Source: Calditrichota bacterium
GTDB lineage: Bacteria > Electryoneota > AABM5-125-24 > Hatepunaeales > Hatepunaeaceae
DNA length: 51,385 bases
NCBI GenBank assembly: GCA_016867835.1
Contig: VGIQ01000005.1
Span: 1 to 51,385 of the forward strand
Direction: 5' to 3'
Shown: positions 32,678 through 51,271 of the stretch, piece by piece
Position numbering within the stretch: the stretch's first letter is position 1
How the letters are laid out: every line of letters starts with the position of its first letter
Position numbers and translations under genes: made by a program
Notes under the pieces: generated by a model
The model's input: the letters and a program-made list of their open reading frames with translations, nothing else
What the model was told of the DNA's origin: nothing
Database searches by the model: none

Positions 32678-33162
32678 GAGCGGCATCACTTAAGGTTGTC
32701 CTGGTTCTGCTTGTCGGCTGCGGGATTTATTCTTTTCGCGGGCAGGGCATCAGCGGCATCAAGACCATCGCAGTCGAACCCTTCGACAGTCGGGTAGCCG
32801 AATATGGCCTGCGTGAGGCAATTCAGGAAGCCTTGATCACGCGCCTGCTAAGCGATCGGGTCTTAAAGATCACCACATCCGGCGCCGCAGATGCCATATT
32901 GCGTGGAACGATCACGTCGTTCGACGATCGACCATTTACCTATCAACGGGATGAGTCGGTAACCGAGCGTCAGATCGTGGTTACGTTGGACGTCCGCCTT
33001 GAACGACCGGGTCAGTCCGAGCCGCTCTGGGCCGGGACTCTGGTAGGGGAAGGCAACTACCCGTATCGAACCGGTTCTCCCGATGAGCGAAAAGAAGGCA
33101 TCGACCGCGCCATCGACCGGATTGCCCTCGATTTGATCAACGGCCTGACGGGCGACTGGTGA
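32674..33162 (+). CDS. lptE: LptE-family outer-membrane lipoprotein
   Basis: 162 residues from GTG 32674. The signal ends in a lipobox LLVGC. The mature part begins YSFRGQGISGIKTIAVEPFD, with SRVAEYGLREAIQEALITRL and a DAILRGTITSFDDRPFTY segment, which is the LptE/RlpB-like pattern of the Bacteroidetes-Chlorobi group. LptE plugs the LptD barrel and helps insert LPS into the outer membrane. Position behind the sigma-54 activator and ahead of two GT9 genes supports an LPS role. Overlaps neighbours on both sides. Confidence 0.75.
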   Translation: MRAASLKVVLVLLVGCGIYSFRGQGISGIKTIAVEPFDSRVAEYGLREAIQEALITRLLSDRVLKITTSGAADAILRGTITSFDDRPFTYQRDESVTERQIVVTLDVRLERPGQSEPLWAGTLVGEGNYPYRTGSPDERKEGIDRAIDRIALDLINGLTGDW

Positions 33163-34268
33163 GCCGCAAGCCTTCCGGCGAAAAGAAGATCGTCGTTCAT
33201 GCGGACTTGAGGCTGGCGCTGGAGGCGCTTCGATCCGGCGAATTGATCATCGCTCCGACCGAGACCGTTTACGGTCTTATGGGACGAGCGTTTGATGACG
33301 ACGTGCTAAAGCGGCTCGACCTTGTCAAAGGCGGACGAAGTGCGCCCTATGCAGCCGCATTTGCGGGACTTTCACAAGTTGAGGAGGTGTTAGGTCCGCT
33401 TGATCTCCGTCGTCGGCGGTTTGCCGTATCGCTTCTTCCCGGTCCTATCACCTTAATACTTCCAGCCGCCAACAATTTGCTTGCGATATACGCCGGATCT
33501 TCAGGCGGTATAGGGGTGAGGATACCGGCGCACCCGGTTCCTGTCACGCTTGCCCGTGACCTCGAGGCGCCTATTTGGGCTACGAGTGCCAACCGAACCG
33601 GGCGCCCTGAACCAAGCTCATTTGCGGCAATAGATTCGAGATTGTTGAATGATGTTCGGATTGTTCTGGACGGCGGCACGACGACCTATCATCGCGCTTC
33701 GACAGTCATCGACACGATCTCGACACCTTACAGCGTCGTTCGTCCCGGACCCTGCCCGGAGCGGGTTGAAAAAGCCCTTCTTGAAGCCGCCTCTCCGATC
33801 AATATCCTCCTCCTCTGCAGCGGCAATATATGCCGCTCTCCTATTGCTGAAGTGCTGTTAAGACACATACTTGATAAACGAAATCTGATAGGCTTCGAGG
33901 TCTCATCGGCCGGTCTCGATGCGATGCCGGAAGATGGCGCAACCCCTGAAATGGCTGCCGTTGCTTCCTCCTGGGGGCTTGCGCTAAGCCATCACCGGGC
34001 AAGGCGTGCGACCATAGAATTGCTTGAGAGCATGGATCTGATCCTCGCGGCTACACCACGTCATCGAGAGCGGATCATAATGTTTTCAAGTAAGATCGGC
34101 GAGCGGGTTCGGCTGATGGGCGAGTCGATCGGCATTGAGGTAATCCCCGACCCCTACCAATCCGGATCCGAGACCTACCTCGAATGTGCAATGCTTTTAC
34201 GAGAGGCTATGACGGGGTGGGCCGATCGATTGGCAGGCGCATCATATAGTATATCAGCCGCGAGATGA
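33159..34268 (+). CDS. Fusion of threonylcarbamoyl-AMP synthase (YrdC/Sua5) and low-molecular-weight tyrosine phosphatase
   Basis: 369 residues. Residues 10-205 are YrdC: ELIIAPTETVYGLMGRAFDD, LDLVKGGRS, LLPGPITLILPAA and APIWATSANRTGRPEPS, making threonylcarbamoyl-AMP for the t6A tRNA base. Residues 212-360 are an arsenate-reductase/LMW phosphatase: ILLLCSGNICRSPIAEVLL with the Cx5R phosphate loop, VSSAGLDAMPEDGATPEM, and the general acid Asp in VIPDPYQSG. All catalytic residues of both look intact. GTG start overlapping lptE. Such fusions are known in scattered bacteria; the functional link between the parts is unclear. Confidence 0.88.
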   Translation: MSRKPSGEKKIVVHADLRLALEALRSGELIIAPTETVYGLMGRAFDDDVLKRLDLVKGGRSAPYAAAFAGLSQVEEVLGPLDLRRRRFAVSLLPGPITLILPAANNLLAIYAGSSGGIGVRIPAHPVPVTLARDLEAPIWATSANRTGRPEPSSFAAIDSRLLNDVRIVLDGGTTTYHRASTVIDTISTPYSVVRPGPCPERVEKALLEAASPINILLLCSGNICRSPIAEVLLRHILDKRNLIGFEVSSAGLDAMPEDGATPEMAAVASSWGLALSHHRARRATIELLESMDLILAATPRHRERIIMFSSKIGERVRLMGESIGIEVIPDPYQSGSETYLECAMLLREAMTGWADRLAGASYSISAAR

Positions 34269-43064: not shown

Positions 43065-43601
43065 ATGAAGCGAATCGTATCCATTGTCATCGCGGGGCTC
43101 ATTACGAGTTCCCTGTCCATCGCCCAGGACAAGCCGGCCGAGAAAAAGCCGGTCTTCGAAGGCGCCAAGAAGTGCATGATCTGCCACAAGGGCGATGCCA
43201 AGGGCAACGTTCATGAGAAGTGGCTCGCTTCCAAGCATGCCAATGCCTTTCAGACGCTGGTGAACAAGAAGGACGGCTCTGAGAAGAAGCCGGAGTGCCT
43301 CGCCTGCCACACAACCGGCTACGACAAGAGCGGTTACAAGGTTGGCGCTGAGAATGCAGCACTGTTCGAAGGCGTTCAGTGTGAAGCATGCCACGGCGCC
43401 GGAAGCGACTACCGGACCATTCACGGCAAAGATCTTGCCGCCGCCGCCAAAGCCGGTTTCGTCGCCAAGCCAACCGAGGCGACCTGTAAGGAATGTCATA
43501 ACGATAAGAGCCCGACCTTCGACAAGGACAAGCCCTTCAAGTTCGAAGAGATGCACAAGAAGATCGACCACCGCTACAAGGCGGCCAAGGCCGGCAACTA
43601 A
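43065..43601 (+). CDS. Periplasmic tetraheme cytochrome c (cytochrome c554-like)
   Basis: 178 residues. Signal peptide (MKRIVSIVIAGLITSSLSIA), then four CxxCH heme sites: CMICH, CLACH, CEACH and CKECH. The layout with HEKWLASKHANAFQTL before the second heme recalls cytochrome c554 and related electron carriers. As first gene of a cluster with Rieske protein, cytochrome b and a nonaheme cytochrome, it probably takes electrons from that complex. A hairpin at 43644 separates it slightly from the Rieske gene. Confidence 0.85.
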   Translation: MKRIVSIVIAGLITSSLSIAQDKPAEKKPVFEGAKKCMICHKGDAKGNVHEKWLASKHANAFQTLVNKKDGSEKKPECLACHTTGYDKSGYKVGAENAALFEGVQCEACHGAGSDYRTIHGKDLAAAAKAGFVAKPTEATCKECHNDKSPTFDKDKPFKFEEMHKKIDHRYKAAKAGN

Positions 43602-43643
43602 ACGGGGCAGTGCGGTATGTCAAAGTGCCGCAACGGGTGATTG

Positions 43644-43674
43644 GAAGCCCCTGCCTTCAGCGGGCGGGGGCTTC
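43644..43674 (+). terminator. Hairpin between the tetraheme cytochrome and Rieske genes
   Basis: GAAGCCCC and GGGGCTTC pair with further C/G pairing inside. No long T run follows, so it may only reduce read-through or protect the upstream mRNA end. Confidence 0.5.
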
Positions 43675-43698
43675 ACCATATGGCGAACGAGGAGTCCT

Positions 43699-44166
43699 TT
43701 GGAACAGCACTCTCCACCGCCTCTTACCAGGCGAAAGTTTCTCGACCACTTCCTGACCGGGACGGGTTTGGCCGCGCTTGCGGGTGTGGTCTATCCGCTA
43801 TTCCGCTATCTGACGCCGCCGCCTCAGGAAGAAGCCGTTGTCTCATCGGTCAACTTGGGGCCAGCCAAAGACTTCCCCCCCGGCAGCGGGAAGATATTCC
43901 GGCTCGGCAGCAAGCCCGGCATTCTGGTTCGCGGTGTAGATGGGAAGTTCCGCGCCTATTATGCGACGTGCACTCACCTGGACTGCATCGTCCAATATGA
44001 CGGCCGTGCCGACAACATCTGGTGTGCCTGCCATAACGGTCGCTACGACCTTAACGGGCGAAACGTCTCCGGACCTCCGCCCCGACCGCTTACTGCACTA
44101 AACGTCAACGTCCTGCCCGACTCGGAGGAGATCCTGATCACCCTCGCTGAAGGAGGCAAAGGATGA
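43699..44166 (+). CDS. Rieske iron-sulfur protein of a quinol-cytochrome c type complex
   Basis: 155 residues from TTG 43699, with GAGGAG four bases ahead. The N-terminus has a twin-arginine signal (LTRRKFLDHFLTGTGLAALA), which also serves as the membrane anchor. The 2Fe-2S site is CTHLDC and CACHNGRYD, the usual CTHxxC...CxCH pattern, in a fold that ends RPLTALNVNVL. It carries electrons from quinol to a c-type cytochrome. It overlaps the cytochrome b gene by four bases. A tatA gene lies two genes downstream, matching its Tat export. Confidence 0.9.
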   Translation: MEQHSPPPLTRRKFLDHFLTGTGLAALAGVVYPLFRYLTPPPQEEAVVSSVNLGPAKDFPPGSGKIFRLGSKPGILVRGVDGKFRAYYATCTHLDCIVQYDGRADNIWCACHNGRYDLNGRNVSGPPPRPLTALNVNVLPDSEEILITLAEGGKG

Positions 44167-45230
44167 TCGCCCGTCTCTTTAACTGGATCAACAGCCGCTA
44201 TAAGATCGAGAAACTGCTCTACTTCTCGCGTGAGAAGTCGGTTCCGCTTCATAGGGGCACAATGTGGTATTACTTCGGCGGGATCACACTCTTTCTGTTC
44301 GGAGTGCAGGTCATCACCGGTCTGGTGCTTCTCTTTTACTATCGCGTAGGGTCGGATGCCTCTTTCGAGAGCGTCAAGTTCATCATAACGCAAGTGAAAT
44401 TCGGCTGGCTTCTCCGCTCGATGCACTCCTGGTCTGCAAATCTGATGGTGCTGGCGGCGATCATCCATATGATGAGTGTCTTCTTTCATCGTTCCTACCG
44501 TAAGCCGCGCGAGATGACCTGGGTGACCGGAGTGACGATGCTCTTTCTGCTGATGGTCTTCGGTTTTTCGGGCTACCTCCTGCCATGGAATGAACTCGCC
44601 TTCTTTGCGACCAAGGTAGGAACCGACAGTGCACGGGCAATTCCCCTTATCGGCGATTTCCTTCTTAAACTGATGCGTGGAGGATCGGATGTAACCGGAG
44701 CCACCTTGTCACGCTTCTTCGGGCTGCATGTCTCGGTCCTTCCGCCGATCTTCACAGGCCTTCTGGCGCTGCATCTCTTTTTCGTTCAGGTGCAGGGTAT
44801 GTCGGAGCCGCTCGAATCGGCGGGGCATGGCAGGAAACGGACGATGCCCTTTCTGCCTGACTTTCTCCTGCGAGACCTGATGGTCTGGCTGGTGACGTTC
44901 GACATCCTGCTTCTCCTTTCGGTCTTTTTCCCCTGGGAGTTGGGCGTCAAAGCCGATCCCTTCTCACCCGCGCCCGCCGGCATCAAGCCGGAGTGGTATT
45001 TTCTATTCGTTTTTCAGTCTCTCAAGATGCTTCCGGCTCACATTTGGGGCATCGAAGGCGAGGTGCTGGGGGTGATGGTGATGGGTGTGGGGGCCGGCGT
45101 GCTCTTTATCCTTCCCTGGCTAGATAGGGCATCATCGCAGGGACTAAGGAATCGCCTTTTCGATGTGATCGGCGTCTTTGGGCTGCTCTATTTTGCAACG
45201 TTCACCATTCTCGGCTATCTGATCGACTGA
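44163..45230 (+). CDS. Cytochrome b subunit (b6-like N-terminal half plus PEWY region)
   Basis: 355 residues, about eight membrane helices. Heme-ligating His pairs lie in MHSWSANLMVLAAIIH (13 residues apart) and HVSVLPPIFTGLLALH (14 residues apart); the 13/14 spacing is that of cytochrome b6, not of mitochondrial cytochrome b. The quinol-site motif PEWY is in GIKPEWYFLFVFQS. The final helices resemble subunit IV fused to the b6 part. It pumps charge by quinol oxidation with the Rieske protein. Confidence 0.92.
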   Translation: MIARLFNWINSRYKIEKLLYFSREKSVPLHRGTMWYYFGGITLFLFGVQVITGLVLLFYYRVGSDASFESVKFIITQVKFGWLLRSMHSWSANLMVLAAIIHMMSVFFHRSYRKPREMTWVTGVTMLFLLMVFGFSGYLLPWNELAFFATKVGTDSARAIPLIGDFLLKLMRGGSDVTGATLSRFFGLHVSVLPPIFTGLLALHLFFVQVQGMSEPLESAGHGRKRTMPFLPDFLLRDLMVWLVTFDILLLLSVFFPWELGVKADPFSPAPAGIKPEWYFLFVFQSLKMLPAHIWGIEGEVLGVMVMGVGAGVLFILPWLDRASSQGLRNRLFDVIGVFGLLYFATFTILGYLID

Positions 45231-45239
45231 GGAAGACCA

Positions 45240-46532
45240 ATGCCAAATCAACTAAGAATCTTCCTGCCGGTAGGCGTCGCCGTGGTAGCCTATGCACTTG
45301 GAGCGATAGCCGCCTTCGCTGCCGCGCCGAACTCCTGTGTGGACTGCCATTCGCAGATACACGAGCAGATCATTGCCGACTCAAAGGAGGATGTTCATAC
45401 CCGGGTTGGGCTCACCTGCGTCAGTTGTCATGGTGGAAATCCGTCGATTGCGGACGAAAAGTCGATGGATCCTAAGGAAGGCTTCATCGGTGCGCCCAAG
45501 CCGAAGGACATCCCCCAATTCTGCGCCCGGTGCCATAGCGACCCGGCCTATATGCGCCCCTACAATCCGTCACTGCCGGTCGATCAACTCGAAAAGTATG
45601 CGACCAGCCGCCACGGGGAGTTACTCAAGAAGGGCGATGCCAAGGTCGCCACCTGCATCAGTTGTCACAAGAGCCATGGCATCCTGCCGGCTTCGAATAC
45701 GCGTTCGTCTGTACATCCGCAGAAGGTGCCGTTGACTTGTTCGATGTGCCATTCCGATGCAAACTACATGGCCGAATACGGCATCCCGACCAATCAATTC
45801 GCCCAGTATGCCGACTCGACGAATGTGCATGGCTATGCGCTCTTTGTGAAGGGCGACATTGGCGCACCGGCTTGTAATGACTGCCACAGCAATCATGGTG
45901 CATTACCGCCCGGGGTCGAGCAGGTAGGACAGGTCTGCACACAATGCCATGCGCTGAACGGGGAGTTTTTCAGGACGAGTCCGCACAAGGATGGCTTCGA
46001 TGCCCTGGGTCTGATGGAATGCGCGTTCTGCCATCAAGCCTCGCCCGATTTGAACGACCCGAAGGCGCGTATCCATACTATCGTCAGCCCGAAGCACAGC
46101 ATGATCGGCACCAAAGAGCCTTCGCTTTGCGCTAAATGCCATAGCGGCGATCCAGGTGCTGAGATGGCTGCGGTGGTGTCGAAGGACCTCGATTCGCTTG
46201 AGGCACGGCTCCATCATGCCCGCGAACTTCTTGAGCGCGCAGAACGGAGGGGGCTTGAAGTATCGGATGCACAATGGAAATTGAAGAGTGAGGTCTTGCA
46301 GGCGCGAATGGAACTGCGCACCTCAATCCACTCCTTCAATCTGAAGCAATATGTCCCCTTCTACGAGCGCGCCGATACGGCACTGAACAGTGTAGTCATC
46401 GCAGGGATTGCCGCAGCCGATGAGACCCGACACCGGATTACGTATTACATTGTGATGACCGTGATCATCGCGCTACTGGTAGCCGGTCTTGGGCTAAAGA
46501 TGCGCGACATCGAGCGGTCGCGTAAAGAGTAG
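45240..46532 (+). CDS. Nonaheme cytochrome c with C-terminal membrane anchor
   Basis: 430 residues. N-terminal signal/anchor (FLPVGVAVVAYALGAIAAFA), nine CxxCH sites (CVDCH, CVSCH, CARCH, CISCH, CSMCH, CNDCH, CTQCH, CAFCH, CAKCH), a helical coiled region around LEARLHHARELLERAERRGL, and a final helix (YYIVMTVIIALLVAGLGL). Standing where cytochrome c1 would be encoded, it likely replaces it as the electron exit of the Rieske/cytochrome b complex. The repeated heme blocks suggest internal duplication. Nine bases follow cytochrome b. Confidence 0.9.
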   Translation: MPNQLRIFLPVGVAVVAYALGAIAAFAAAPNSCVDCHSQIHEQIIADSKEDVHTRVGLTCVSCHGGNPSIADEKSMDPKEGFIGAPKPKDIPQFCARCHSDPAYMRPYNPSLPVDQLEKYATSRHGELLKKGDAKVATCISCHKSHGILPASNTRSSVHPQKVPLTCSMCHSDANYMAEYGIPTNQFAQYADSTNVHGYALFVKGDIGAPACNDCHSNHGALPPGVEQVGQVCTQCHALNGEFFRTSPHKDGFDALGLMECAFCHQASPDLNDPKARIHTIVSPKHSMIGTKEPSLCAKCHSGDPGAEMAAVVSKDLDSLEARLHHARELLERAERRGLEVSDAQWKLKSEVLQARMELRTSIHSFNLKQYVPFYERADTALNSVVIAGIAAADETRHRITYYIVMTVIIALLVAGLGLKMRDIERSRKE

Positions 46533-46558
46533 TCGTTAAAGGCTTTGACGGAGGCACT

Positions 46559-46771
46559 ATGCGGCTTGGACCGTGGGAAATCGCCTTGATCGTAATGTTC
46601 GTGATCGTCCTCTTTGGTGCGCGCAAGATTCCTGAGATAATGCGCGGTTTCGGATCCGGAATCAAGGAGTTTAAGAAGGGGATGAAGGAAGAGGATGCGG
46701 AGTCCGCGAGTGCCGGTCCGACGCCGCCGATGAACAGCGGTCCCAACGGCCGGCCTCCGGAAGGTAAATAA
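46559..46771 (+). CDS. tatA: Twin-arginine translocase subunit TatA/TatE
   Basis: 70 residues. A single N-terminal helix (WEIALIVMFVIVLFGARKIP) followed by the amphipathic segment PEIMRGFGSGIKEFKKGMKE and a short disordered tail. GGAGG lies seven bases ahead of the ATG. It forms the pore part of the Tat system; tatC is not in the window. Its place right after the Rieske/cytochrome cluster fits the Tat signal of the Rieske protein. Confidence 0.92.
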   Translation: MRLGPWEIALIVMFVIVLFGARKIPEIMRGFGSGIKEFKKGMKEEDAESASAGPTPPMNSGPNGRPPEGK

Positions 46772-46844: not shown

Positions 46845-47685
46845 TGTTCACTTGACGGGGAATCGGAAAGTGCTCGGCGGCAAGTTGCAAAACGGTGCTC
46901 AACACCGGCTCCCGTCCGGCTACGATGTCACCCTGGGTTAGAATGTCGTTCTGGCCTTGAAAGTTCGTTATCATGCCGCCTGACTCTTGAATGATCAGGC
47001 TGCCCGCTGCGATGTCCCAGGGCGAAAGATCGAGTTCCCAGAAGCCGTCGAATGTTCCGGTGGCAACATAGCAGAGATCTACGGCTACCGCACCGGGACG
47101 GCGGATGTTGGCACATTGCTCCATAAGTTCGGAGAGCATCGCGAGGTAAGGCTTGCGGTAGCCTGCGACTCGAAAGGGGAATCCAGTGCAGAGTAGGGCA
47201 GAACTGAGAGGGCGGGAGGCATTCAGGCGAGGGAGGGGGGTCTCGTTTCGACGGACACCTTCACCTCGAGCCGCTGAAAAGGTCTCATCAAAGGTCGGTA
47301 TGGCAATCGCCCCGGCGAAGATATCGCCCCAAGTTTCACCGGTCTTGGGATGGCTTTCTATGGCAATCGAAACCGCCCAAATGGGCAGCCCGCGCAGGAA
47401 GTTAGTTGTCCCGTCAAGTGGGTCGATGATCCAGGTCCAAGGCGAGTCATTGCTTCCCGAGAGGTAGCCGGCTTCTTCTGTCAGAAAGGCGGCGCCGGGC
47501 AATTCCCGACTTAGGAACTCCAGAATAGACGCCTCGGCAGCCCGGTCGGCTTCGCTTACCCAGTCGTTGGTGCGTTTGGCAAAGATCGAGTCGGGATTCA
47601 CATGCCCGAAGAGTCTCTTTAACAGTTGCCCTGCATCATTAGCGGCGCGGCAGGCTAATAGTCTTAGTTCTTCGCCTTCGGTCAC
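46825..47685 (-). CDS. suhB: Inositol monophosphatase family protein (SuhB/CysQ-like)
   Basis: 286 residues from GTG 47685, which overlaps the stop of the upstream gene (GTGA); the longer frame would overlap that gene heavily. Metal and phosphate motifs are complete: NDWVSEADRAAE, FLTEEAG, WIIDPLDGTTNFLRGLP and SPWDIAAGSLIIQESGG. The family hydrolyses inositol phosphate or related sugar phosphates with Mg2+, and SuhB also works in ribosome-RNA processing. Substrate cannot be read here. Coupled to a membrane lipoprotein gene of unknown role. Confidence 0.9.
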   Translation of the reverse strand: MTEGEELRLLACRAANDAGQLLKRLFGHVNPDSIFAKRTNDWVSEADRAAEASILEFLSRELPGAAFLTEEAGYLSGSNDSPWTWIIDPLDGTTNFLRGLPIWAVSIAIESHPKTGETWGDIFAGAIAIPTFDETFSAARGEGVRRNETPLPRLNASRPLSSALLCTGFPFRVAGYRKPYLAMLSELMEQCANIRRPGAVAVDLCYVATGTFDGFWELDLSPWDIAAGSLIIQESGGMITNFQGQNDILTQGDIVAGREPVLSTVLQLAAEHFPIPRQVNKAPDRN

Positions 47686-48782
47686 CGACGCCCGCCAGAC
47701 CTGCGAATCCGCCTCCGAAAGGTGATCAATCCAATCCCACTCATCAATATGACCAGTATGCCCAGGATATTGACGTAGTCGGGAAGGATCGCTACGGCTA
47801 TCATAAAGCCGTCCGATCTTTGAAGGGTCTCGCCTTTGAACTCCCAAACCACCTTACGAGGCGATTCCCGGTCGCCATTGGTGCGGATGAGGATGCCGGG
47901 CAGCGACGCCTTCACTTCAAACTTGTCGTCCTGTAAATCGCGAGTTGCTTTGTACTCTTGCTCGAGGGCGTCGGCGATGTCGCCAATCATCGGTATCCGG
48001 GCGGGATCCACAAAGTCGGCAAAGCGGCCCAGGAACTGCGGCCGCAGGTCTTCCCACCAGTCGAGATTGGCGGATTCGGGATTCGGGATGTCGAGACTAT
48101 TAAGGTATCGGCGCAGGTCATCAGCCCAGCCGGTTCGGGTGATGCTGTGAACATCGCTGCCGCTGTCGGGAAGCGCGATGCCGCGGCTTTGAGCAATACT
48201 CCAAAGGCGATCGAAGGCGCGTTCGTAACGGGCGCGGTTCCACTGGATGATTCCGAGGGCGAACATTTTCTCGAGTTCTTCTTCACGACCGGGTGCCAGT
48301 GCCTGGCGCGACTCATCATCCTCCAAAGCATGGCATTCGGGAGGAATGAAATCCCATGTATCGCCGTAACGAGCAAGGTATTCGCGAGAGCCGAAGAGAC
48401 CGGCGAATCGATAGATCGTGTAGAGCGGATTGCGGTTCAGATCGAGGATGAAACTTCGCGAGGGGTAAATGGTGTCGGCGGGCAGCCTTGCCCAGTCGAA
48501 TAGGCGCCCCCAATCGTCCACGGAGACTGCTCTGGCACTTGCGGTGATGCGGTGAACGGTCTTGCCTTCGCGCTCTTCGACCGTGCGGTTCATCTCCCAA
48601 ATCGTTGAATCGGGGTGCAGTTCAAGTCCATCCTCAAGGTCGGCGACATCACCGCTCACTTCATAAACGATGTTTGCACTCCCGTCGGGATGGATCACGA
48701 ATTCATAGGAATGCTGAAGACAGCCGGCCAGGAAGGCGAGAATGAGGGGAAGGCACCAGAAGGAGTTATATAGGCGGCGCAT
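47682..48782 (-). CDS. Lipoprotein with a C-terminal membrane helix, unknown function
   Basis: 366 residues from ATG 48782. The N-terminus is a lipoprotein signal (LPLILAFLAGC), followed by HSYEFVIHPDGSANIVYEVS, the start of a beta-rich domain seen in several uncharacterised exported proteins. A helical middle (WNRARYERAFDRLWSIAQSR) is followed by a strand region and a final helix (YVNILGILVILMSGIGLITF) with a basic tail, so both ends are membrane-attached. The frame runs on to 49328, but that would antiparallel-overlap thyX. A TTGGAG/TATATT promoter puts the transcript start near the ATG. Confidence 0.75.
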   Translation of the reverse strand: MRRLYNSFWCLPLILAFLAGCLQHSYEFVIHPDGSANIVYEVSGDVADLEDGLELHPDSTIWEMNRTVEEREGKTVHRITASARAVSVDDWGRLFDWARLPADTIYPSRSFILDLNRNPLYTIYRFAGLFGSREYLARYGDTWDFIPPECHALEDDESRQALAPGREEELEKMFALGIIQWNRARYERAFDRLWSIAQSRGIALPDSGSDVHSITRTGWADDLRRYLNSLDIPNPESANLDWWEDLRPQFLGRFADFVDPARIPMIGDIADALEQEYKATRDLQDDKFEVKASLPGILIRTNGDRESPRKVVWEFKGETLQRSDGFMIAVAILPDYVNILGILVILMSGIGLITFRRRIRRSGGRR

Positions 48783-48899: not shown

Positions 48900-50411
48900 A
48901 TGCGTGTAACGTTGGCCGGTTTCAATGTAGATACCGGCTATTTCGAAGCTGTCCAAAAGATACTGCGTGAAGTCGTGGATCCGGACCTCTCCCCGATTGA
49001 CCGTCGTGAAATTTTGATGCGTTTCGAGCAGGAGCCGGTCACTCCTGAGACCATCTCGGCAGCCTACGCCCGGATCAGTCGCAGCGAAAAGAGCGTCCGG
49101 GACCTCCGCATCGACGCCCGGGCCTCGGTTGCGCGTGCCCGTCAATCTAACGAGCGGATAGTCTTTGGTCTGGGGCACGCCTCGGTCGCCGAACATGCCG
49201 TCTTCAACATCGACATAACCGACGCTTCCCGACTGGCACTCGAGGACCTTGAAGCCCACCGGCTCACTTCGTTTACCGAAGCTTCGCAGCGATACATTTC
49301 TATGAAGGGCGAGTATGTTCTTGCTCAAGAGTTAGAAAGTAGTGAACTTAGAGACGAATGCCGCGCTCACTTCGAGTCGCTCTTCGAAAACTATCGCGAA
49401 CTGTCGGACGAACTTACCTCCTTTCACCATGACCTGCCGGAAAAAGAGCGCGTCGGTCGGGCGCGTGAAGATGCGAGGTATCTTCTCCCACTCGCTTGTC
49501 CCGGTCAGGTCGGAATGACGGTCAATGCACGCACCGCTGAGGTGATGATTCGCCGGTTTGCCGGTTCAAGCCTCTCTGAGGTGCGTGAAATGGGCCGTCA
49601 AATGCACCACGAACTGCGCCGGCTTGTCCCTTCGCTGATCAAATACACCGAACCTAATCCCAAGCGCGCTGAGGCGGAGGACGATCTTACTCAAGCAGCG
49701 CACAATCTGATGAACGGAACGGAGATGCATAGGGGAGTCTCTGCCCGACAGGAAGTGCAACTGCTCGCCTCCCCGAACGAACAGGAACTTCAGGTCGTAT
49801 CGGCGCTGCTCTTTCGTGCCGGTGGCAGGTCGTTTGAGGAAGCGCGATCCTGTGCCAGAGCAATGGGCGGGCGCGAGCGGCAGCGGCTATTGGCGACGGC
49901 GCATCGCTACATAAACGAGCACGACGAGGTGCTTCGCGAAATGGAGTTGGCAGTCTTCCAGTTTGAGGTTGTCCTGTCAGCATCGGCTTTTGCGCAATTG
50001 AAACGGCACCGGATGGCCACTATTGTTCGCCAGCCGTATGACCCCGCGTTAGGTGTGACCATACCACCCGCCATTGAGGAAGCCGGGCTTGCGGTGAGGT
50101 TTCTTGCAGCGTTGGAACCTGGGGAAGTCCTGTTTAAGAAGATCGGTGATGTGCTGCCAAAGGAGGCATCAGTCGCAGCCAGCTATGTCCTCTCTAATGC
50201 CCATCACCGCCGGGTTATTTTTCAGGCCAATGCGCGGGAGTTGACACACCTTTCGCGACTGCGAATGGATGCCCATGCGCAATGGGACATCCGCCGACTT
50301 GCCGGACAAATGATCGAGTTGGCTCGCGATGCGGCTCCGGTGCTGATGATGTTCGCAGCCGGTAAGGACAGTTTTGCGGCAGTTAACAAACGGATCGGTG
50401 AGTTTCTGTGA
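48900..50411 (+). CDS. Double-length ThyX-like (FAD-dependent thymidylate synthase family) protein
   Basis: 503 residues, about twice the usual ThyX length. The N-half has GHASVAEHAVFNIDITDASR and EAHRLTSFTEASQRYISMKG (residues about 118-137), matching the ThyX signature RHRxxSxNExSxRY. The C-half has LKRHRMATIVRQPYDPALG (about 365-383) but no SQRY, and then NARELTHLSRLRMDAHAQWD (about 440-460), the dUMP/FAD-binding tail of ThyX, which is poorly preserved in the N-half (NARTAEVMIRRFAG). It looks like a tandem duplication in which each half kept a different part of the active site. AGGA lies ahead of the ATG. It may make dTMP or have drifted to another flavin reaction. Confidence 0.75.
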   Translation: MRVTLAGFNVDTGYFEAVQKILREVVDPDLSPIDRREILMRFEQEPVTPETISAAYARISRSEKSVRDLRIDARASVARARQSNERIVFGLGHASVAEHAVFNIDITDASRLALEDLEAHRLTSFTEASQRYISMKGEYVLAQELESSELRDECRAHFESLFENYRELSDELTSFHHDLPEKERVGRAREDARYLLPLACPGQVGMTVNARTAEVMIRRFAGSSLSEVREMGRQMHHELRRLVPSLIKYTEPNPKRAEAEDDLTQAAHNLMNGTEMHRGVSARQEVQLLASPNEQELQVVSALLFRAGGRSFEEARSCARAMGGRERQRLLATAHRYINEHDEVLREMELAVFQFEVVLSASAFAQLKRHRMATIVRQPYDPALGVTIPPAIEEAGLAVRFLAALEPGEVLFKKIGDVLPKEASVAASYVLSNAHHRRVIFQANARELTHLSRLRMDAHAQWDIRRLAGQMIELARDAAPVLMMFAAGKDSFAAVNKRIGEFL

Positions 50412-51271
50412 AGCGAACTCTTACGCTGGTATTTCTGTCACTCATCCTCTGCGGCTGCGGTCTCAGCAACCGGCTGGTCGTCCGGATGAGCCGCCCCCTG
50501 ATCGAAGGCACGATGGAGGCAATCCTCTCGGAAACGGATCCGGAGATAGCCCGGACGGCAATGGAGGCACATCTTAAACTGCTCGAGGGGATGATCGTCA
50601 CGGCTCCCAATGACCGGCAACTTCTGACGCTCGCCGCCCAAGGATTTACGGGTTATGCCCTGCTCTTTGTTGAGGCGGAGTCTAAGGAACGGGCATCGGG
50701 CTTCTACCTGAGAGGTAAGGAGTATGGACTCCGGGCGCTATTCACAGGGCAGAGCAAGTTAGGCCAACAGGATCCAACCTTTACAGAATGGGAGCGGGCG
50801 GTAAGACGACTTGACAGAAGCGATGTCGCTGCGGCCTACTGGACCGGTGCCGCATGGAGCGCTTATATCAATCTGAATCGTGACCGACCAGCAGCCATTG
50901 CCTCGTTTGCCCGTGCCAGGCTGCTCTTCGAGCAAGTCTATCGTCTCGACCCAAATTACTACTATTCCGGCCCGAGGTGGATGCTCGGACTTTCCTATGC
51001 CGGACTTCCCAAAATGGTCGGTGGAGGCCCTGAAATTGCCTGGCCTTTCTTTAGGGAAGCGCTCGACGCTGACGGCGACCGGTTTCTTTTAGGCAAAGTG
51101 CTTTGTGCTGAATACTACGCCGTGAGTGCCGGTGATTCGGTGCTTTTTCGACGGTTGCTTCAGGAGGCGATTATACCACCGCCAGTCGAACCTCCCGAAT
51201 TACGGCTTCTTAACCGGATGGCTGCCCGGCGGGCAGCGGAGTTACTCAGGCGTATCGAGGAGTTGTTTTGA
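50408..51271 (+). CDS. TRAP transporter T-component (TatT-like) lipoprotein
   Basis: 287 residues from GTG 50408. Lipobox LILCGC, then a helical TPR-like protein: RMSRPLIEGTMEAILSETDP, LAAQGFTGYALLFVEAE, the AAYWTGAAWSAYINLNRD segment and a YYYSGPRWMLGLSYAGLPKM block typical of TatT. In Treponema the homologue forms a trimeric periplasmic partner for the substrate-binding protein of a TRAP transporter. The next gene begins like such a binding protein, which supports the call. Overlaps neighbours on both sides by four bases. Confidence 0.8.
   Translation: MKRTLTLVFLSLILCGCGLSNRLVVRMSRPLIEGTMEAILSETDPEIARTAMEAHLKLLEGMIVTAPNDRQLLTLAAQGFTGYALLFVEAESKERASGFYLRGKEYGLRALFTGQSKLGQQDPTFTEWERAVRRLDRSDVAAAYWTGAAWSAYINLNRDRPAAIASFARARLLFEQVYRLDPNYYYSGPRWMLGLSYAGLPKMVGGGPEIAWPFFREALDADGDRFLLGKVLCAEYYAVSAGDSVLFRRLLQEAIIPPPVEPPELRLLNRMAARRAAELLRRIEELF

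Follow-up and report, generated by a model that had tools for sequence, protein, structure and literature searches.

Introduction

ThyX is absent from humans and is therefore an antibacterial target. Canonical members of the family, such as T. maritima TM0449 (1kq4) and M. tuberculosis ThyX (3gwc), are chains of ~210-250 aa with a complete residue set per chain and four identical sites. Each site of the homotetramer is built by three subunits (PMC6514825). In the M. tuberculosis enzyme, the RHR motif (Arg95) and Arg199 come from subunit A, Ser71 and Arg190 from subunit B, and Arg87, Ser105, Arg107 and the lid residue Tyr108 from subunit C (PMC6514825). Gln75 and Arg182 (the Arg174 equivalent) were assigned to the same monomer and Ser88/Gln89 to a different one (PMC3498832), and His53 is supplied by 'monomer-3' (PMC11940539). 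In T. maritima ThyX, mutation of Ser88, Arg90 or Tyr91 causes strong impairment, and dUMP is activated by Arg174 (PMC8316439). Throughout, we use role A for RHR, Gln75 and Arg174, role B for Ser/Thr55, Arg165 and His53, and role C for the Ser88-Arg90-Tyr91 loop. Because the sites of ThyX are common to three identical subunits, each residue serves several roles, which are hard to test apart.

A ThyX with a domain duplication was reported in 2009 from Chloroflexi and 'a few other species', and was called uncharacterised (Valas and Bourne, PMC3224940); that report gives no residue analysis, no site division and no model. In the literature we searched, which included few subscription journals, no characterised fused ThyX was found beyond this remark, nor were a division by subunit role, its near-universality, dead sites or a two-chain model; the architecture has already been remarked on, the mechanism, in that literature, has not. 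Proteins of ~490-530 aa with two ThyX halves are also on record from large Bacillus/Paenibacillus, Euzebya and Miltoncostaea plasmids and from a Microcystis and a Tunturiibacter phage, several of them on phages or phage-like plasmids. NCBI annotates such fused proteins simply as FAD-dependent thymidylate synthase.

Here we describe a fused ThyX from a Calditrichota genome. Compared by description only, it shares with the form of Valas and Bourne a ThyX with domain duplication and is very probably of that kind; it is 23-29% identical to the plasmid and phage proteins, which show the same residue division where examined. With a probability of about 0.83, we consider it a ThyX-type thymidylate synthase whose site residues are divided between its halves and whose chains pair into a pseudo-tetramer in which two sites are live and two dead.

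Results and discussion

A ThyX gene of double length

The window, i.e. the whole 51,385-nucleotide stretch of DNA analysed (contig VGIQ01000005.1), carries on its forward strand a fused, domain-duplicated thyX gene (48900..50411). The ORF list gives a single 503-aa frame with its ATG start at 48900 and its TGA stop at 50411. Pfam Thy1 matched the chain in two stretches (6.9e-56; 189.5 bits against a cut-off of 24.8), and also matched each half alone, with 3.1e-33 and 115.6 bits for the N-half (residues 48-245) and 1.2e-23 and 84.3 bits for the C-half (residues 62-214 of the C-half fragment). Consequently, both halves are ThyX homologues, and the possibility raised by a preliminary description of this DNA, that one half is unrelated to ThyX, did not materialize. 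Profile comparison gave E-values of 8e-24 and 2e-25 for the halves against single ThyX, and of 4e-12 for half against half. With the NCBIfam thyX equivalog TIGR02170, the entire chain scored 126.8 bits, above the cut-off of 87.9, and the separated halves 83.7 and 54.3 bits, both below it.

On the basis of these matches and the residue counts given below, we delimited, all on the forward strand, an N-terminal ThyX half with the B-role and C-role residues (residues 1-255; 48900..49664), a variable inter-domain linker (residues 256-285; 49665..49754) and a C-terminal ThyX half with the A-role residues (residues 286-503; 49755..50408). The linker is unconserved in the alignment and has the lowest model confidence (pLDDT 66 in block 271-280).

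A full-chain structure was predicted from a 74-sequence alignment and reached a pLDDT of 92.5 and a pTM of 0.90. Its secondary structure runs through the series strand-helix-strand-long helix-helix-strand-helix-helix two times, at 101-240 and 352-478. All 50 PDB matches listed are ThyX chains, with TM-scores over the target of up to 0.76 for M. tuberculosis chains and about 0.65-0.69 for T. maritima, and the predicted fold is common to the fused and canonical proteins. Since every solved ThyX chain that we found has ≤ 270 aa, the fused form appears to be without a solved structure. The window protein is not a canonical ThyX: the contiguous signature (RHR ... S-x-R-Y) was not found in any one stretch.

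We found no point in favour of explaining the double length by an assembly artefact, a frameshift fusion or a pseudogene. Full-length frames of ~480-530 aa were seen in 30 of the phylum's genomes and at every one of the 80 loci kept from a species-genome scan with at least 568 confirmed relatives, and fused frames also occur in the named plasmids and phages, which makes such an explanation next to impossible.

Active-site residues are divided between the halves

To assign residues, the N-half was aligned with M. tuberculosis ThyX (3gwc) gap-free from residue 86 (Mtb 62) through the substrate loop, and the C-half gap-free over residues 421-481 (Mtb 165-225). The T. maritima reference sequence agrees with PDB TM0449 over all 220 aligned positions apart from the last but one. 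Conservation was counted in 120 distinct fused homologues drawn from phylum relatives, the 80 species-genome loci, viral contigs, and phage and plasmid records. Coordinates below refer to the forward strand.

The preliminary description had read an HRxxSFTEASQRY signature in the N-half, and an RHR together with an NAREL...LR...AQWDIR tail in the C-half. These motifs are where it placed them: the N-half reads A119-H-R-L-T-S-F-T-E127-A-S129-Q-R131-Y132, and the C-half contains R369-H-R371, N444-A-R446-E-L and L454-R455...A460-Q-W-D-I-R.

Role A falls to the C-half. Q366-L-K-R369-H370-R371 (49995..50012) corresponds to T. maritima Gln75 and Arg78-His79-Arg80, the RHR being aligned by profile comparison, and belongs to the predicted live site. 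Gln75 is kept in 113/120 C-halves against 2/120 N-halves, and the RHR is complete in 120/120 C-halves. In the N-half, its first Arg, replaced in the window protein by A119 (Mtb Arg95) just upstream of the H120-Y132 loop, is retained in 14/120 sequences. The claim that RHR is confined to the C-half holds for the complete motif, but its middle His persists in 34/120 N-halves and its last Arg in 109/120 (H120 and R121 in the window protein; Mtb His96 and Arg97). The division is sharpest at Arg174: R455, within H450-W462 (50247..50285, including L454-R455), is the equivalent of this dUMP-activating residue, aligns with 3gwc Arg199 and is invariant (120/120), whereas the same position of the N-half, F220 in the window protein (49557..49559; predicted dead site), is an Arg in 0/120.

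Roles B and C fall to the N-half. G92-H93-x-S95-x-x-E98-H99 (49173..49196) corresponds to T. maritima His53, Thr55 and Glu58, with S95 equivalent to Mtb Ser71, and would contact FAD in the predicted live site; H93 is kept in 118/120 and S95 in 120/120 N-halves, counts that are inflated for scanned sequences because the search patterns contained both residues. In the C-half, His53 is found in 43/120 and Thr/Ser55 in 1/120; there, R346-x-x-E349 (49935..49946) has R346 in place of the FAD-contacting Thr55 (109/120; predicted dead site), and E349 corresponds to Glu58 (109/120). N209-A-R211 (49524..49532), equivalent to Asn163-Arg165, supplies the remaining B-role residue of the predicted live site. 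Arg165 is kept in 117/120 N-halves and also in 109/120 C-halves, where the corresponding N444-A-R446 (50229..50237; R446 aligns with Mtb Arg190, N444 is kept in 104/120) is retained despite its predicted dead site.

The substrate loop H120-Y132 (49257..49295) carries the C-role residues of the predicted live site, E127, S129, R131 and Y132 (T. maritima Glu86, Ser88, Arg90 and Tyr91; the last three Mtb Ser105, Arg107 and Tyr108), each conserved in 120/120 N-halves. R111 (49230..49232), equivalent to the dUMP-contacting Mtb Arg87, is likewise assigned to role C and is an Arg in 116/120 N-halves and 0/120 C-halves. The degenerate loop of the C-half, M372-P389 (50013..50066; MATIVRQPYDP in part), has lost Glu86, Ser88 and Arg90 and is assigned to the predicted dead site. 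Ser88 is present in 14/120 and Arg90 in 5/120 C-halves; the Tyr91 equivalent, probably Y380, is found in 107/120. In addition, E190-R193 (49467..49478), equivalent to Glu144 and Arg147, is conserved in the N-half (E190 in 114/120, the others having D; R193 in 120/120) and lost in the C-half.

Taken together, all ten scored residues stand in the predicted division in 116/120 homologues and in the opposite division in 0/120, the opposite assignment accounting for only 0-5 of the ten per sequence; the division is therefore not due to chance. Mean entropy at live positions was 0.17-0.28 bits compared with a background of 1.95 bits in the N-half, which is the more conserved half, and 2.30 bits in the C-half. 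Dead-site A and C positions lie at background entropy (2.20 and 2.32 bits). The genome and viral scans had used short N-half patterns, which included H93 and S95, and the C-half and substrate loop lay outside every pattern. Nine fused proteins obtained by Thy1 profile search in an even draw of genomes from one phylum, with no motif pattern, have the same division, including a very distant one (L253). As judged from sequence, the division matches the published subunit roles exactly, the C-half taking role A and the N-half roles B and C. The complementary losses, with no half carrying a full set and neither holding all FAD and dUMP residues, agree with what the preliminary description had seen in the window protein, and are shared by 116/120 homologues. 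Once the fused halves are pooled, every dUMP/FAD contact scored is present, as in canonical ThyX.

These counts bear on the view that catalysis resides in a single half, with the other serving as a degenerate scaffold or regulatory domain. The N-half, with its higher Thy1 score and lower background entropy, would be the natural candidate; however, it lacks Arg174 in 120/120 and the first RHR Arg in 106/120, and the invariance of both in the C-half means that the latter is no pure scaffold. We regard this view as very improbable. Another possibility is that all four sites are active, the second pair using the substituted residues R346, Y380 and K/S119. Equivalents of Asn163, Arg165, Glu58 and Tyr91 are indeed present in the second site of most members, and R346 and P389 (120/120) are conserved. 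The losses of Arg174, Ser88, Arg90, Thr/Ser55 and the first RHR Arg from that site nevertheless include residues whose mutation strongly impairs T. maritima ThyX and the one that activates dUMP, and four active sites seem to us quite improbable.

Thymidylate synthase content of the genomes

The preliminary description had also suggested looking in the full genome for thyA or a normal thyX. The genome that contains the window (2.9 Mb, 100% complete) lacks both ThyA and any further ThyX. ThyA (PF00303) is absent from it and from 39/39 genomes of the phylum, of which 30 have fused ThyX, seven a single ThyX only and two neither. In 29 of the 30, no other thymidylate synthase accompanies fused ThyX; the remaining genome, G026, carries a single ThyX as well. 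Among 30 genomes of other lineages, all with the fused form, 27 lack any other thymidylate synthase, the exceptions being two with a weak ThyA match and one with a single ThyX. Given the lack of ThyA and other ThyX in its own genome and in 29/30 fused-ThyX genomes of the phylum, the fused protein is very probably, on this genomic evidence, a working thymidylate synthase rather than the catalyst of a new reaction.

A shift to another flavin-dependent reaction or substrate, with thymidylate made otherwise, had been offered as an alternative. ThyX relatives with other substrates do exist, e.g. the PolB-type uracil methylases (PMC5003785), and the C-half substrate loop has been remodelled, with conserved residues of its own. 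Against this, the predicted live site retains all the dUMP/FAD contacts scored (116/120), and without fused ThyX no known route to dTMP would be left to lineages lacking ThyA and other ThyX; the complete genome considered here offers no second gene type for the job. With the contacts kept in the only recognizable thymidylate synthase of the genome, a new reaction is not favoured, and we think it improbable. As a side observation, the two fairly complete genomes of the phylum in which neither ThyX nor ThyA was found (G014 and G027) either miss sequence or use an unknown route.

A putative two-chain assembly with two live sites

A duplication with subsequent partition of the active site, as initially proposed, is consistent with all the sequence evidence, and the losses follow the published subunit roles. 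The further proposal that this division occurred within one chain is borne out insofar as the residues are split between the halves, but a site formed strictly by one chain is not, since the published geometry needs three subunits per site. It follows from this geometry that each live site would consist of one C-half and both N-halves, and that two of the four sites would be dead. A pseudo-tetramer of two chains, also put forward at the outset, would fit all of this evidence.

In our model, two chains would form a D2-like pseudo-tetramer in which a true two-fold axis relates the N-halves to each other, and likewise the C-halves. If the subunits of a D2 tetramer are labelled such that A, B and C make up site 1, B, A and D site 2, C, D and A site 3, and D, C and B site 4, then C-halves at A and D with N-halves at B and C would complete sites 1 and 4 and leave sites 2 and 3 without catalytic residues. 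Under the published roles, this would be the assignment that places the observed losses in dead sites. The two live sites, each of one C-half and both N-halves, would bind FAD, dUMP and methylene-tetrahydrofolate and produce dTMP through ordinary ThyX chemistry. The other two sites, each of one N-half and both C-halves, would have lost their catalytic residues and, after fusion, drifted under relaxed selection. Thus, in contrast to the complete chains and four identical sites of canonical ThyX, the 503-aa fused protein has its residues divided and is predicted to have two live sites.

Several residues are at odds with drift of the dead sites, as R446, N444, E349 and probably Y380 persist in the C-half and R121 in the N-half. 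The equivalents of Asn163/Arg165, Glu58 and Tyr91 in the C-half and of Arg80 in the N-half may be structural, or the dead pocket may have a use. Moreover, R346, Y380, G385 and P389 of the C-half (49935-50066) display strong new conservation in the predicted dead site, and the newly conserved R346, G385 and P389 indicate that drift of the second site is under some constraint. One may speculate that the vacated sites have become conserved regulatory pockets for an effector, such as a nucleotide, built from R346, the Y380/G385/P389 loop and Asn163/Arg165. Although we consider this unlikely, it would, if true, give the enzyme an allosteric control that is impossible for homotetrameric ThyX, and makes the vacated pockets a place to look for regulation.

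The divided, two-live-site arrangement would separate roles that coincide in homotetrameric ThyX, so that an A-role residue could be changed with the B or C roles untouched. It would also be a clear example from nature of how duplication, fusion and reciprocal loss can leave an enzyme with half as many active sites, in many bacterial phyla and on mobile elements. For the design of inhibitors, it is relevant that the subunit logic would differ in a large part of the ThyX family.

Distribution and origin of the fused form

The 80 loci kept from the species-genome scan come from lineages that include Calditrichota, Aminicenantes, Syntrophaceae/Smithella, Elusimicrobia, Omnitrophota, WOR-3, Eisenbacteria, Krumholzibacteria, KSB1, Margulisbacteria, Nitrospinota and Myxococcales. 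Of 198 genomes drawn evenly from one phylum, ~11 had two Thy1 matches in one frame of ~480-560 aa, and roughly 100 had a single ThyX. When halves and single ThyX were placed in one tree, the N-halves all fell into one clade and the C-halves all into another, each with support of 1.0, and the divergent phage and plasmid forms fell within these clades. One N-clade and one C-clade point to one ancient fusion that then spread widely, probably with the involvement of horizontal transfer. Single ThyX was placed between the two clades, on long branches, and the origin may therefore be a fusion of two already distinct ThyX genes.

Two candidates were rejected as fused ThyX: L263 (Desulfobacterota), whose Thy1 match is marginal, and L262 (G241:C65:35700-38000), a single ThyX of 590 aa split by an apparent intein directly after the RHR motif. 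In about a dozen Desulfobacterota ThyX of ~320 aa, L264 among them, the Thy1 match is split (12-67, then 56-190), which suggests a long insertion within the Thy1 domain.

Neighbouring genes

Downstream of fused thyX, and overlapping it by 4 nt, lies a gene on the forward strand (50408-51271) for a TAtT (TRAP transporter T-component, PF16811) lipoprotein-like protein. At many loci of the phylum (L004, L006, L011, L013, L016, L017, L022, L025, L028, L036, L037, L039 and L040), a TAtT homologue adjoins fused thyX, a pairing that is conserved without obvious reason. On the other side, a divergent lipoprotein-like ORF of 366 aa (47682-48782, reverse strand) has no Pfam match; its homologues are found in the corresponding neighbourhood of family relatives. 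Further upstream, a row of forward-strand genes (43065-46771) encodes a multihaem cytochrome, a Rieske-like protein, cytochrome b, and a second multihaem cytochrome (Pfam cytochrome c7/c3), with TatA next in line, and resembles the gene set of a bc-type complex that includes multihaem cytochromes. Finally, inspection by eye of 33159-34268 (forward strand) revealed an apparent fusion, in one frame, of a Sua5/YrdC-like and a low-molecular-weight tyrosine phosphatase-like domain.
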